Shown in pieces: positions 1,303-6,277 of a stretch of DNA of 7,407 bases. The notes under the pieces were generated by a model that saw only the letters and a program-made list of their open reading frames with translations, ran no database searches and was not told the DNA's origin. The translations under genes and the position numbers were made by a program. Source of the stretch: Candidatus Fermentibacterales bacterium (GTDB lineage Bacteria > Fermentibacterota > Fermentibacteria > Fermentibacterales > JAFGKQ01); NCBI GenBank assembly GCA_016928495.1, contig JAFGKQ010000281.1, forward strand, positions 1-7,407. The letters are read 5' to 3'. Within the stretch, counting starts at the first letter, position 1. Each line of letters starts with the position of its first letter.

Positions 1303-2541
1303 TCAGGCACGCTCCACATCGGCATCGAAGATCATGAAGCCGTCATCGGTGAGCGCTGACGCCGAGTCGCAGGACACGCCCCTGAAGTCATCCCCGAAGA
1401 TCCTGAAGAGGTGCGACGAGACCCGCAGCTCGGGCAACCTTCCGAGCAGCCTCGAACCGTCGTGAAGCATCGCCAGCTGAACCGGGGTGGCGAAGGCCCC
1501 GTCGGGCTTGAACTCGCCGCCGGCGGCGAACACGATCAGTACTCCGGGATCACCGCGAAGCAGCTCCGAGGCAGTGCGATCGGAAGAGTCGGGGACCAGG
1601 CCTGGAAGGGAGAGACAGGGGACTCCGTCGAAGGCGCCCCCCGCAGCCCCGGTGAGGGGGAGCCCGAATCTCTCTGCCGTTCGCTTGTCCGTGAATGCCG
1701 TCCTGACGACCCCCTCATCCACCAGCGGAAGCGTGAACCCCTCGTTGACCACGCCTTCCATGTCGAAGAACGGGCCGCATCCCCTTTTCGGGTCGCTGCA
1801 CTGCAGCAGTGTGAGCCCCTCGGAGAACACCTTCTCCCCGATTCTCCCAGAGAGCAGGGACGCTCCGGAGCCGATCGAGAGGCCGCTCAGGTCGGTATAG
1901 AGCTTCCTCAGAGGCATGGACCAGTTCTCCCTGGTCAGCATCACGGGGAGCTTCCGCCCCTCCGGAAGGTCGACGGGAGTGGAGAAGGCCTCGCAGAACG
2001 AGCCATACTCTTCCAGAAGCAGGCTGCGATCGTATCTGGCCATCGAGGAGGGGATAAGAAAGCCGTCGAGTATTCCACTCGATCCCTTCTGCTTGAACAT
2101 CAGGTCCACGCTCAGCTCATCGTAGACGTTCTCCAGATCGAGCCCGAGATCGTTGTGAAGCGACCTCCTGTACACGGAAAGCAGGACCTTGTTGGTGAAG
2201 AGCAGCCCCGGAGCCATCCCGATCAGGCCCTCGACCAGGGCCTCCGCTTCCTCCAGGAACTCCCCGGCCTGCAGTTGGATGCGAGTGGAGTCGAGCGATT
2301 GCCTTCGCTCCGGGGACAGTCCGAATGGGTACTCCACGCCCCTCTCGAGGGCCTTCTCTGCCTTTTCCCAGAGCATGGGCTCGTCGAAGATGCCTATCGC
2401 GCCGGCAGTGCCTATCAGACCGTCGGAGTAGACCCTGAACCCGGTTCTCGTGATGTCCTTTCTCCTCACGGAGTCGATGGTGCTCCCCGACACGTTGACG
2501 GCGACCTGACGAATGATCTCGGTGTAGCGCTCGCGTACCAT
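1303..2541 (-). CDS. tldE: TldE/PmbA-like partner subunit of TldD metalloprotease
   Basis: This is a 412-residue member of the TldD/PmbA (U62) family, and the catalytically silent partner: there is no HExxxH. The N-terminal domain has the family pattern ITRTGFRVYSDGLIGTAGAI (30-49). The central part carries PVMLTRENWSMPL (199-211) and GASLLSGRIGEKVFSEGLTL (226-245). The C-terminal domain has FFDMEGVVNEGFTLPLVDEG (258-277), matching the conserved fDdEG...G segment, followed by AERFGLPLTGAAGG. In the known family TldE pairs with TldD, whose zinc site does the proteolysis, degrading or maturing unfolded peptides (microcin B17 and CcdA in E. coli). The ATG has GGAGG at 2546-2550, and the gene follows tldD by 12 bp, so the two are co-transcribed. 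It is somewhat shorter than typical PmbA (about 440-450). Substrate here is unknown; no RiPP precursor is visible nearby. Confidence 0.9.
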   Translation of the reverse strand: MVRERYTEIIRQVAVNVSGSTIDSVRRKDITRTGFRVYSDGLIGTAGAIGIFDEPMLWEKAEKALERGVEYPFGLSPERRQSLDSTRIQLQAGEFLEEAEALVEGLIGMAPGLLFTNKVLLSVYRRSLHNDLGLDLENVYDELSVDLMFKQKGSSGILDGFLIPSSMARYDRSLLLEEYGSFCEAFSTPVDLPEGRKLPVMLTRENWSMPLRKLYTDLSGLSIGSGASLLSGRIGEKVFSEGLTLLQCSDPKRGCGPFFDMEGVVNEGFTLPLVDEGVVRTAFTDKRTAERFGLPLTGAAGGAFDGVPCLSLPGLVPDSSDRTASELLRGDPGVLIVFAAGGEFKPDGAFATPVQLAMLHDGSRLLGRLPELRVSSHLFRIFGDDFRGVSCDSASALTDDGFMIFDADVERA

Positions 2542-2553
2542 GCCGCCTCCGCC

Positions 2554-3897
2554 CTAGCTCACGTTCATGCCGCGCACTCGAACGTACGGGCCGCCGAAGC
2601 TGACGCTGAGGGGATACTGCTCGTGCTTGCCGCAGCCTCCGCCCGGCCCCCTCACGATCTCCAGCTCGTCCGAGAGCCCGTCTATCATGCCCAGGGTCTC
2701 CATGACGTTCCCGGTTATGACGGAGACGTTCACCGGCTCGGCTATGCGGCCATGCCTGACCAGGTAGGAGAGCGAAGGCGCCAGAGTGAAGGTGCTGAGC
2801 CCGGAACCGTGGAGAACCGTCTCGACGAAGAGCCCTTCGTCGACGCCTTCGAAGAGCTCATCCCTGCTCATCGTGCCGGGCTCGATATAGGTCGTAGTCA
2901 TCCTCGGGATGGGCTCGTACTCGAAGCCGATGCTGCGGCCGTTGCCGGTCGGCTCCTCGTTGAGGGCCGCGGCGGTGACGGAGCTATGGAGCCTCCCGCT
3001 CAGGATGCCGTTCCTTATGAGGTAGGTCTTGCGGGACCTGGTTCCCTCATCGTCGAAGGGTGTGAACCCTCCACCCTGCACGCTGCCATCATCCACGATG
3101 GAGAGAGCCTCCGGGCCGACGCGCGACCCGACGGCCCACTCCCGCATCATCGCGTCGTCTCCTATCATGAAGTCGGCCTCGCTCTTGTGTCCGAAGCTCT
3201 CGTGAGCGAAGATGCCCGCAGCGAAAGGAGACAGTATCACGGTGTATTCGCCGGGATCGACCGGCCTGGACTCGCGGAGGAAGCTCTCTGACTGATCGAG
3301 CCTCGCGGAGAGCTTGCCCTCGAGGCTCTCGAGCTCGTCGAAGCCGGTTGTCCCGTCGAACTCCGTCTCCCTGAACCTCCTGTCGCCCTCGGACAGCTCG
3401 AACAGCACGAAGAGGCCGGTCGTCTGAGTGTCGAAGCGAAGGTCTGCGCCCTTGCTCGAGAGGATGTGCTTGCGCGTGTGCCGGTCCATGTAGGCTCCGC
3501 GCCAGGACTTGACGAGTGAGCGATCCGAGAGTGGAGAGAAGGACCTTCTCAGCAGCTCATGCTTGGCGGCAGGGTCGACCCCGGAAACCGAGCTGCCAGC
3601 GAAGCCCTCGAAATCGCCCACGTTCGCCTCGAGCCTCTTCACTACAGGGTGGTCCTCGATGTCGAGTCTCGGCCGGGCCGCCGAAGCCAGGGCATCCAGC
3701 TCGCCCTGCACGCTCGCCAGCTCGGAGACTGCGGAGTAGTACCATCTGTCCCCGTCGAACACCCTCACGAAGGCTGCAGTGAAGTCACGCTCCCTGAACT
3801 CGTCCAGGCGTCCAAGTGTGTAGGCTATCACCGTACTGGAAACCCTCTCGACCCTGACGTCCGAGTAGAGCCCCCGCGGGAATCTGGCAACGGTCAT
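2554..3897 (-). CDS. tldD: TldD-like zinc metalloprotease subunit
   Basis: This is a 447-residue TldD-family (U62) peptidase. The active-site motif HESFGH is at residues 232-237, followed by KSEAD, matching the family HExxGHxxEaD. A Cys at 422 in GPGGGCGKHEQYPLSV corresponds to the third zinc ligand near the C-terminus of TldD proteins. Other family segments are FDDEGTRSRKTYLIRNGIL (281-299), EPIPRMTTTYIEPG (328-341) and the terminal SFGGPYVRVRGMNV. I placed the start at the ATG at 3897 because GGAG (3904-3907) sits 6 nt upstream; in-frame GTG at 3924 and ATG at 3909 would add 9 or 4 residues but lack a clear ribosome site. It acts in the cytoplasm as a heterodimer with TldE, encoded 12 bp downstream. 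The product should be catalytically competent. The substrate is not evident from the neighbourhood. Confidence 0.92.
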   Translation of the reverse strand: MTVARFPRGLYSDVRVERVSSTVIAYTLGRLDEFRERDFTAAFVRVFDGDRWYYSAVSELASVQGELDALASAARPRLDIEDHPVVKRLEANVGDFEGFAGSSVSGVDPAAKHELLRRSFSPLSDRSLVKSWRGAYMDRHTRKHILSSKGADLRFDTQTTGLFVLFELSEGDRRFRETEFDGTTGFDELESLEGKLSARLDQSESFLRESRPVDPGEYTVILSPFAAGIFAHESFGHKSEADFMIGDDAMMREWAVGSRVGPEALSIVDDGSVQGGGFTPFDDEGTRSRKTYLIRNGILSGRLHSSVTAAALNEEPTGNGRSIGFEYEPIPRMTTTYIEPGTMSRDELFEGVDEGLFVETVLHGSGLSTFTLAPSLSYLVRHGRIAEPVNVSVITGNVMETLGMIDGLSDELEIVRGPGGGCGKHEQYPLSVSFGGPYVRVRGMNVS

Positions 3898-4039
3898 CCC
3901 GGTCTCCATCCAGCTCTCGGTCACTGGGTGAACCGCACTTCACGGCTCCGGCAGGCAATCTAAAGGCAGAAGCGATCCATGGACAGACCCCTTCCACAGC
4001 CGGCAGGGCCGGTTCGTGATCCCGCGGTCGCGCGAAGGG

Positions 4040-4288
4040 TCAGAACGAGGAGGTGAGCGCCTCCTCGACCTCGATTATCTCCTCGAAGGGAGCTCCGGCC
4101 TTCTCGAAAAGAGCTTCTATGTCGGCTCTGGATGGAGCCTGCCAGCAGCAGAAGACCCGCCCCAGCTCCCTGTTCAGGTAGGCCCTGTCCATTGTCAGCC
4201 CGCTTCCCCTGGAAGCGTTGATGACTCTGGTTCAAGCGCTTCTGATCGACTCCCGATCCCGCTTCGGCATCGTGATCAGGTACTTCAT
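4040..4288 (-). CDS. Putative selenoprotein, DUF4242 (SCO4226-like) domain, Sec19 encoded by in-frame TGA
   Basis: I read 82 residues from the ATG at 4288 to TGA at 4040-4042, passing through an in-frame TGA at 4232-4234 taken as selenocysteine 19. The first 18 codons (MKYLITMPKRDRESIRSA) follow a GGAGGTG ribosome site. After the TGA the same frame continues as GSGLTMDRAYLNRELG (28-43), then VFCCWQAPSRADIEALF (45-61), AGAPFEEIIEVEE and the stop. The motifs G-[LV]-T, [AS]-Y, FC, AP[ST], I and IxEV in that spacing are those I know from DUF4242 proteins, a small ferredoxin-like fold that includes a nickel-binding Streptomyces protein. In relatives as I remember them, a Cys occurs ten residues before the G-[LV]-T, exactly where the TGA falls here. 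Function is unknown; Sec19 and Cys47/48 suggest a redox or metal role. The TGA could instead be a nonsense mutation, but both halves look intact. tldD lies 142 bp downstream on the same strand. Confidence 0.72.
4194..4225 (-). promoter_or_regulatory. Candidate bacterial SECIS stem-loop after the in-frame UGA
   Basis: Six nt after the UGA, GUCA (4225-4222) pairs with UGAC (4197-4194). After an internal loop (UCAA opposite GGC), CGCUUCC (4217-4211) pairs perfectly with GGAAGCG (4207-4201), closing a 3-nt AGG loop (4210-4208). The apical loop begins 21 nt after the UGA and has G at its second position. This fits the known bacterial SECIS model: loop roughly 16-37 nt from UGA, a G in the first two loop positions, and a hairpin inside the coding sequence that recruits SelB. 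There is no following U-run, so it is not an intrinsic terminator. Confidence 0.65.
4232..4234 (-). other. In-frame TGA, proposed selenocysteine codon
   Basis: This is codon 19 of the 4288-4040 frame (GCT TGA ACC). TGA is used as a normal terminator by tldE, the ABC ATPase, the permease and the DUF481 gene, so genome-wide TGA-to-Trp or TGA-to-Gly reassignment is unlikely. The local hairpin would be needed to specify Sec. Confidence 0.65.
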
Positions 4289-4598: not shown

Positions 4599-5528
4599 AT
4601 GGAAGAGACTCGTGTTCTGGCAGTCGAGGACGTTTCCAAATCCTACGGCAGAATCGACGCCCTCTGCGGGATATCCTTCTGGGTGGAGAAGGGCGAGATC
4701 TTCGGCCTCGTCGGCCCCAACGGGGCAGGCAAGACGACCACGATCGAGATAATCGCGGGCCTGCGTTCTCCGGACTCCGGATCCGTCTCCCTGCTCGGAC
4801 TCGATCCGCAGAGGGACGAAGACCGGCTCCGTCACCACGTGGGCATCCAGCAGCAGGAGTCGGAGCTCCCGGAGAGGATCCGGATCAGAGAGGCCATGCA
4901 GCTCTTCTCCTCGTTCTACGGGAGCACAGTCGACTGGAGGGCCTTGCTCGAGCGGATGGGTCTTTCCGACAGGCTCGACTCGTTCTTCGGGGAGCTCTCC
5001 GGAGGCCAGAAGCGCAGGCTCTTCATATCGATGGCCCTGCTCTCCGACCCGGAGGTGATCCTGCTCGACGAGCTGACGTCCGGGCTCGATCCCCAGGGAA
5101 GGAGAATGCTCTGGGATCTGGTCAGGGACATGAGGGACTCCGGCAAGACGGTCCTGCTGACGACCCACTACATGGATGAGGCCGAGCACCTCTGCGACCG
5201 GGTCGGGATAATCGACCGGGGAAGGCTGGCAGCTCTCGGCACGCCGGCAGCACTGGTGGCCGGCATGCCCGGGGGCACCAGGGTCACGGTCACGCCGGGG
5301 AGGAGCCTGACGAACGACGTGCTCGATCAACTGAGGGGCATCGAGGGAGTCACGGGAGCGAGGCTCGAGAGAGACGCGCTCGTCGTAGGGATCACCAGCG
5401 GACGTGTGCTCGTGGATCTGGTGGGCCTGATGAGCGGGCTGGGTCTGGACCTCGAAGACTTCGATGTGGAGCGACCGACTCTGGAGGACGTGTTCCTGTC
5501 GGTGACCGGTAGGGAGCTGAGGGACTGA
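4599..5528 (+). CDS. ABC exporter ATP-binding protein (DrrA/CcmA type)
   Basis: This is a 309-residue nucleotide-binding subunit of an ABC-2 exporter. Walker A is GPNGAGKT (39-46), the Q-loop is GIQQQ (82-86), the signature is LSGGQ (133-137), Walker B is VILLDE (153-158), the D-loop is SGLD (161-164) and the switch His is H190 in TTHYMDEAEHL. The C-terminal extension (about 225-309) ends in RPTLEDVFLSVTGREL, typical of DrrA-like subunits of drug, lipid or polysaccharide exporters. One deviation is Leu159 where most relatives have Pro (DELT instead of DEPT), which should not affect catalytic residues. The start ATG has only a poor purine stretch (GGGGG about 10 nt upstream). The stop overlaps the permease start (TGATG), so the two are translationally coupled. 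The substrate cannot be told from the sequence. Confidence 0.93.
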   Translation: MEETRVLAVEDVSKSYGRIDALCGISFWVEKGEIFGLVGPNGAGKTTTIEIIAGLRSPDSGSVSLLGLDPQRDEDRLRHHVGIQQQESELPERIRIREAMQLFSSFYGSTVDWRALLERMGLSDRLDSFFGELSGGQKRRLFISMALLSDPEVILLDELTSGLDPQGRRMLWDLVRDMRDSGKTVLLTTHYMDEAEHLCDRVGIIDRGRLAALGTPAALVAGMPGGTRVTVTPGRSLTNDVLDQLRGIEGVTGARLERDALVVGITSGRVLVDLVGLMSGLGLDLEDFDVERPTLEDVFLSVTGRELRD

Positions 5529-6277
5529 TGAGGGCCGCCCGCAACGCACTGAGAATCGGCAGGGTGGAGCTGCTGCTCTACTTCAGGGATCACTCGGCGT
5601 TCTTCTTCACCCTGATCTTCCCCCTGATGCTGATGCTGCTGTTCGGCAGCATGTGGGGCAACTCCCCGTTCGAGGGCGAGGCCTTCGGCTTCATAGACTT
5701 CTCGGTCAGCGCCTTCATGGCAATGGTGATCGCGACCAGCGGGATCATGGTGTTGACCACCAACATCGCCGCCTACCGCGAGAGGGGCATCCTGAGGCGC
5801 TTCAGGGCATCGCCGGCTTCACCCGTCGCCGTTCTGCTCGGAGAGGTGATCGCGGTCTTCGCAGTGACCATCGCCGGAGTCGTCCTTCTCCTCCTGGCTG
5901 CGATCGTCCTCTGGGGCGTCAGGTTCTGGGGGAGCCTGCCTGAGTTCCTGGCCGCCTTCCTGCTCTGCAGCATCAGCCTCGCAGGTCTCGGCTTCATCCC
6001 GGCGAGTCTGGCGCGAACCGCCAGGGGCGGGCTCGTGGCCGCCAACCTGCTCTACTTCCCCATGCTCTTCCTGTCGGGGGCGGCGGTTCCCTTCCGGATG
6101 CTGCCGCCCTTCCTGAAAGGCTTCGCGCAGGCGCTTCCTCTGACCCATGCGGTAAGGCTGATGCAGGGGGTGTGGCTCGGCGGGAGCCTACTGGACTATC
6201 CGCTGGAGCTGGCTGTCCTCGTGGCGGTCATGCTCGCAGGACTGCTGGTGGCCTGTCTGTTCTTCCGCTGGGAATGA
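5528..6277 (+). CDS. ABC-2 type exporter permease (DrrB-like)
   Basis: This is a 249-residue inner-membrane permease. About six hydrophobic segments are visible: 22-42, 59-80, 103-130, 138-160, 167-188 and 224-246. Family landmarks are a cytoplasmic N-terminus with LLLYFRDHSAFFFTLIFPL, the YRERGILRRFRASP coupling loop (83-96) after TM2, and the ABC-2 signature region LFLSGAAVPFRMLPPF (180-195) followed by QALPLTHAVRLMQGVWLG. The ATG shares one base with the ATPase stop, and GAGGG sits about 5 nt upstream. With the ATPase it would form a homodimeric-permease exporter (two copies of each). Its stop is 10 nt from the convergent DUF481 gene. Substrate is unknown. Confidence 0.92.
   Translation: MRAARNALRIGRVELLLYFRDHSAFFFTLIFPLMLMLLFGSMWGNSPFEGEAFGFIDFSVSAFMAMVIATSGIMVLTTNIAAYRERGILRRFRASPASPVAVLLGEVIAVFAVTIAGVVLLLLAAIVLWGVRFWGSLPEFLAAFLLCSISLAGLGFIPASLARTARGGLVAANLLYFPMLFLSGAAVPFRMLPPFLKGFAQALPLTHAVRLMQGVWLGGSLLDYPLELAVLVAVMLAGLLVACLFFRWE

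Follow-up and report, generated by a model that had tools for sequence, protein, structure and literature searches.

A conserved in-frame TGA predicts a selenocysteine-containing branch of the SCO4226-like (DUF4242) family in Fermentibacterota

The closest described relative of the protein considered here is SCO4226 of Streptomyces coelicolor, in which His23 is a ligand of nickel-2, and in which Tyr50 and Leu52 are among the residues contributed by both subunits (PMC4186839). The locus also resembles those of small bacterial selenoproteins, in which the selenocysteine (Sec) UGA is followed by a bSECIS hairpin. Published constraints for this hairpin are an apical loop of 3–9 nt with a G in its first two positions, an upper stem of 4–16 bp, a UGA-to-loop distance of 16–37 nt, and a minimum free energy (MFE) of at most −7.5 (PMC13188914). 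Here, we describe a gene in a stretch of 7,407 nucleotides (the window; contig JAFGKQ010000281.1) of a Candidatus Fermentibacterales genome, which we predict with high confidence to encode a selenoprotein; within the SCO4226-like family (DUF4242, PF14026), it would form a branch that contains Sec. This identification is based on a conserved TGA, a conserved hairpin, the presence of Sec machinery, the pairing of Sec with Cys in relatives, and the predicted fold.

The gene and conservation of its in-frame TGA

The gene occupies positions 4040–4288 on the minus strand of the window. From an ATG at 4288 the frame runs through 18 codons to a TGA at codon 19 (4232–4234) and continues unchanged through 63 further codons to a second TGA at 4042–4040, which is the true stop, the coding part extending from 4288 to 4043 (82 codons). 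A ribosome-binding site, GGGAGG (4302–4297), precedes the ATG by 8 nt. Both elements, named in the original prediction, can be read directly from the sequence, and the predicted length of 82 residues and the position of the TGA at codon 19 proved exact. The gene proposed at 4040–4288 was thus confirmed, but the strand had not been given; the plus-strand translation of this interval contains nothing resembling an SCO4226-like protein. When the inner TGA is translated, the product of 82 residues matches PF14026 as a single domain with 37.4 bits (E 3e-9), above the Pfam gathering cut-off of 28.5 bits, in agreement with the DUF4242 domain proposed earlier.

Homologues of this gene were found in 11 of the 42 Fermentibacterota genomes (five of nine genera), the window copy included, and a separate search of the phylum with the Pfam model recovered the same 11 genomes. 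Each of the 11 homologues contains exactly one in-frame stop, which is always TGA and always in the same alignment column, a pattern well beyond chance. The copies of relatives are only 46–57% identical to the window protein, and the source genome forms a family of its own among the Fermentibacterota genomes compared. Retention of the TGA at such a level of identity indicates that it has persisted for a long time. Conservation extends to both sides of the TGA: M7, P8, and I15 are conserved 5' of it, and V22, A25, S26, G28, S29, D34, R35, C47, and W49, among others, 3' of it. The ribosome-binding sites of the relatives, located 5–7 nt before the start, are GGAGG in nine of ten cases and GGGGG in one. 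A sequencing error as the source of the TGA, which had been named as a possible refutation, is ruled out, as 11 separate assemblies share it.

No Cys form of the gene was detected in the 42 Fermentibacterota genomes with the Pfam model. A scan of GTDB contigs with conserved peptides gave matches only in Fermentibacterota (Candidatus Fermentibacteria, Aegiribacteria, Sabulitectum, and Fermentibacteraceae), the patterns being drawn from Sec copies, so that distant Sec copies may have been missed. A scan of IMG/VR found no relative.

Predicted fold, the Sec position and its possible function

The AlphaFold model of the protein, computed from an alignment of 11 rows with Sec modelled as Cys, has a mean pLDDT of 90.6 and the order beta-alpha-beta-beta-alpha-beta. 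Its best structural match in both programs used was SCO4226 (4oi6), with a Foldseek E value of 1.2e-5 and, in VIA, a Z score of 12.1 and an rmsd of 2.0 over 78 residues; unrelated entries followed, at Z 9.2 and below. The numbering of the two proteins differs by +4 in the alignment to 4oi3/4oi6, an offset that is fixed by the letters matching Trp41, Asp43, Ser46, Tyr50, Leu52, His76, and Val78 of SCO4226 (PMC4186839). Provided that no gap lies between residues 19 and 28, as is the case in gap-free actinobacterial members, Sec19 aligns with His23.

To see which residues occupy this column elsewhere, non-Sec PF14026 members of Actinomycetota and of two further phyla were aligned. Among the 20 relatives with no gap between the Sec column and Cys47, the column holds Cys in 14, His in four, and Val and Ala in one each. 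Homologues with Cys at this position, for which the original prediction had proposed to look, form the majority in another phylum. In the KSC-type group a Cys is located two columns away, beside indels; it may be equivalent to the Sec column, but it was left out of the Cys count. In the CxWxAP group of another phylum, which contains the closest relatives as judged by the C-terminal half, Trp or Tyr predominates in the column, and Cys occurs once. Plasmid records contributed one actinobacterial relative of the His type. As judged from these alignments, the column is a site of Sec/Cys pairing, with His as a third state. Cys47 (codon at 4148–4150, minus strand), in turn, is invariant in all 51 aligned family members. 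PF14026 proteins are present in 54 of 149 genomes of the phylum of genome G303, some of which carry two or three copies; some of these proteins lie in open frames of 270–535 codons, and fusions may exist.

In the predicted fold, Sec19 is on helix 1, on the same side as the invariant I15 and V22, and Cys47 is on strand 3. In a ferredoxin-like fold helix 1 crosses over strand 3. Moreover, as Tyr50 and Leu52 of SCO4226 are contributed by both subunits, residue 51, which is Cys47 here, should face the helices. Taken together, these features make a contact between Sec19 and Cys47 plausible. The product would be a small ferredoxin-like protein, and a dimer if it is like SCO4226, in which Sec19 would act as a reactive selenol with Cys47 as its partner. 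By likeness to other Sec/Cys redox proteins, the two could form a reversible selenenyl-sulfide. We give such a selenol–thiol redox function about an even chance of being the true one.

A less likely but possible alternative is that the protein is a selenoprotein in which Sec19 serves as a ligand of a soft metal or metalloid, replacing His23, possibly in concert with additional cysteines at 46–48. The position of Sec19 on the nickel-2 ligand of SCO4226 (offset +4; PMC4186839), the occurrence of His exactly at the Sec column, gap-free, in actinobacterial members, and the CCC run at 46–48 in most Sec copies would all fit such a role. However, the nickel-1 site is lost in the Sec copies, where Asp43, Ser46, and His76 are replaced by Asn39, by Leu, Glu, or Asp at 42, and by Ile, Glu, Arg, or Val at 72. 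The NCBIfam equivalog model of the nickel-binding SCO4226 proteins (NF033706) is far from satisfied, with 27.1 bits against a cut-off of 125. We favour the redox function over soft-metal binding. In either case, the Sec proteins probably constitute a new family in which the redox or soft-metal centre of an SCO4226-like fold consists of a helix 1 Sec and a distant strand 3 Cys, the former at a position that alternates between His, Cys, and Sec.

The hairpin and decoding of the inner UGA

Downstream of the inner TGA a hairpin was predicted at 4193–4226 (minus strand), with an inner stem GCTTCC/GGAAGC, an outer stem, and the apical loop AGG at 4210–4208. It is present 3' of the TGA in all 11 copies and in each falls within the published bSECIS constraints. 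The inner stem, of 6–7 bp, is invariant across the copies, the loop has 3 nt (AGG in the window and GGN in the other copies), with a G in its first two positions that is followed by another G, and the outer stem GTCATT/AATGAC is conserved apart from some substitutions, U-A to C-G in the window among them. The loop lies 21 nt from the UGA, and the MFE of codons 20–33 ranges from −13.2 to −18.7.

As the protein encoded by the hairpin region (ASGGSG) is itself conserved, we examined synonymous sites. Codons 25, 26, 28, and 29 (GCT TCC ... GGA AGC) are identical in all 11 copies, Ser26 being always TCC and Ser29 always AGC, which means that two different serine codon boxes are used in every copy. 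Synonymous identity is 0.80 over codons 22–33 and 0.57 elsewhere, although codons 44–51 reach an equally high value, and we would count the increase at the hairpin as support rather than as proof. When the sequence was recoded synonymously, a hairpin as stable as that of the window arose in only 15 of 1000 recodings, and those of the relatives were equalled in 1–158 of 1000, the energy of one of them (L033; 158 of 1000) being unremarkable. By this measure, the SECIS-like hairpin noticed in the window at the outset is real. Covariation in the stem is modest: seven of the 14 pairs are invariant, and the double changes observed were reached in 25 of 500 shuffles. This weakness is explained by the fact that the stem hardly varies. 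No Rfam family matched the hairpin.

The source genome contains the genes that Sec insertion would need. A tRNA-Sec with the anticodon TCA (74 bits) and selB (306 bits) were found, and selB adjoins the C-terminal part of selA, which is cut by the end of contig C111 and scores 92 bits, under the whole-protein cut-off. Two tandem selD genes each contain one TGA, placed exactly where Sec-type SelD has its CAGU site. They lie at 357–1283 and 1732–2646 of contig C329 of the same genome, G000 (L101 and L102), with the motifs CAGUASK and CAGUAGK; to our knowledge, two Sec-type SelD genes side by side are unusual. The search for selA, selB, selC, and selD suggested at the start thus yielded all four, selA in part, and their presence indicates that UGA is very probably decoded as Sec in this genome. 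Within the phylum, tRNA-Sec was detected in 36 of the 42 genomes and was not found in two of the 11 genomes carrying the Sec gene (G012 and G031, both draft MAGs). Since tRNA-Sec is nearly universal in Fermentibacterota, its co-occurrence with the gene adds little.

According to the mechanism that we propose, ribosomes would initiate at 4288 and reach the UGA at codon 19, where the hairpin, starting a few bases 3' of it, would bring SelB and Sec-tRNA. This UGA would then be read as Sec, and the terminal UGA at 4042–4040 as a stop.

It is very improbable that the inner TGA is instead an ordinary stop, with the 3' part translated from an internal start or with the gene decayed. An ATG is indeed available at codon 31 in ten of the 11 copies and at codon 33 in all of them, and broken genes can be expected in draft MAGs. 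Yet, the TGA is the same in all 11 genomes with a protein conserved on both of its flanks, the retention in orthologues being what the original prediction had asked about, and the hairpin is maintained by synonymous constraint. Moreover, a protein started at codon 31 or 33 would be a one-domain fold deprived of strand 1 and helix 1. Still more improbable is that the TGA specifies a different amino acid (tryptophan in code 4) or is read through without selenium: although the frame would be open under such decoding and Trp occupies the Sec column in some of the CxWxAP relatives, TGA is the terminal stop of the gene in the window and in six of ten relatives, and the source genome has a tRNA-Sec (TCA), SelB, two Sec-type SelD, and a bSECIS 3' of the inner TGA.

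Gene neighbours, novelty and comparison with known systems

Just downstream of the Sec gene, a TldD-like metallopeptidase gene (2554–3924, minus strand; identified with Pfam and tblastn) and a TldE/PmbA-like gene form a tandem at 1303–3924 on the same strand. No such pair was found near the Sec genes of relatives, and it was therefore rejected as a set of operon partners. On the other side, an ABC exporter pair (4599–6277, plus strand; ATPase 4599–5528, ABC-2 permease 5528–6277) is a divergent neighbour of the gene. An exporter pair is close to the Sec gene in six of the 11 loci (the window and L027, L028, L029, L030, and L032), and the pairs of these five relatives are orthologous to that of the window, with 55–60% identity in the permease and 49–52% in the ATPase. 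However, the pair is divergent and upstream in the window but convergent and downstream in the five relatives, and it occurs without the Sec gene in many genomes, so that we draw no function from this neighbour. Gene neighbours do not decide between a redox and a metal function. In the Sabulitectum copies (L034, L035, and L036), the Sec gene is preceded, on the same strand, by an EF-G-like gene whose end lies about 95 bases away.

The protein is almost certainly a selenoprotein, of which no description was found in the literature searched, and none was known when the gene was first noticed. A literature search returned no paper joining DUF4242 with selenoproteins, DUF4242 itself being mentioned in only three of the papers covered, and one for SCO4226 and selenocysteine gave no paper with both among the best-ranked matches, at the head of which such a paper would be expected. 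The 2026 inventory, which covers 119 families and subfamilies of prokaryotic selenoproteins (PMC13188914), does not include DUF4242/PF14026, no DUF4242 selenoprotein is named in the examined passages of the deep-Sep paper (PMC12013277), and no selenoprotein model of NCBIfam release 20 matches the Sec protein. The gene would add one family to the roughly 119 families and subfamilies of prokaryotic selenoproteins known so far, one that standard annotation would overlook across a whole phylum. It also marks residue 19 as a functional centre of the DUF4242 family: the presence of Sec where relatives have Cys or His points to a chemically active position, which makes the function of DUF4242 directly testable.

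Of the known systems, SCO4226 (4oi3/4oi6), a nickel-binding dimer, shares with the Sec protein the full-length ferredoxin-like fold, the size of 82 residues, and a cysteine, Cys51, equal to Cys47. It differs in having His23 where the Sec protein has Sec, and in its nickel-1 ligands, which the Sec protein has not kept. The Cys-type PF14026 proteins of the phylum of G303 (for example, L074, L075, L082–L085, and L090–L093) have Cys at the Sec column (14 members), which the invariant Cys follows 28 residues later, as in the Sec protein, but they contain no TGA and are distant in sequence, being detected by profile and not by plain similarity. Small selenoproteins of bacteria that pair Sec with Cys (Table 1 of PMC13188914) have in common with the Sec gene a Sec-UGA, a bSECIS immediately downstream, and Cys homologues, although none of them is a DUF4242/PF14026 protein. 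Finally, in contrast to the known UxxC and CxxU motifs, Sec and the invariant Cys are 28 residues apart in the protein described here.
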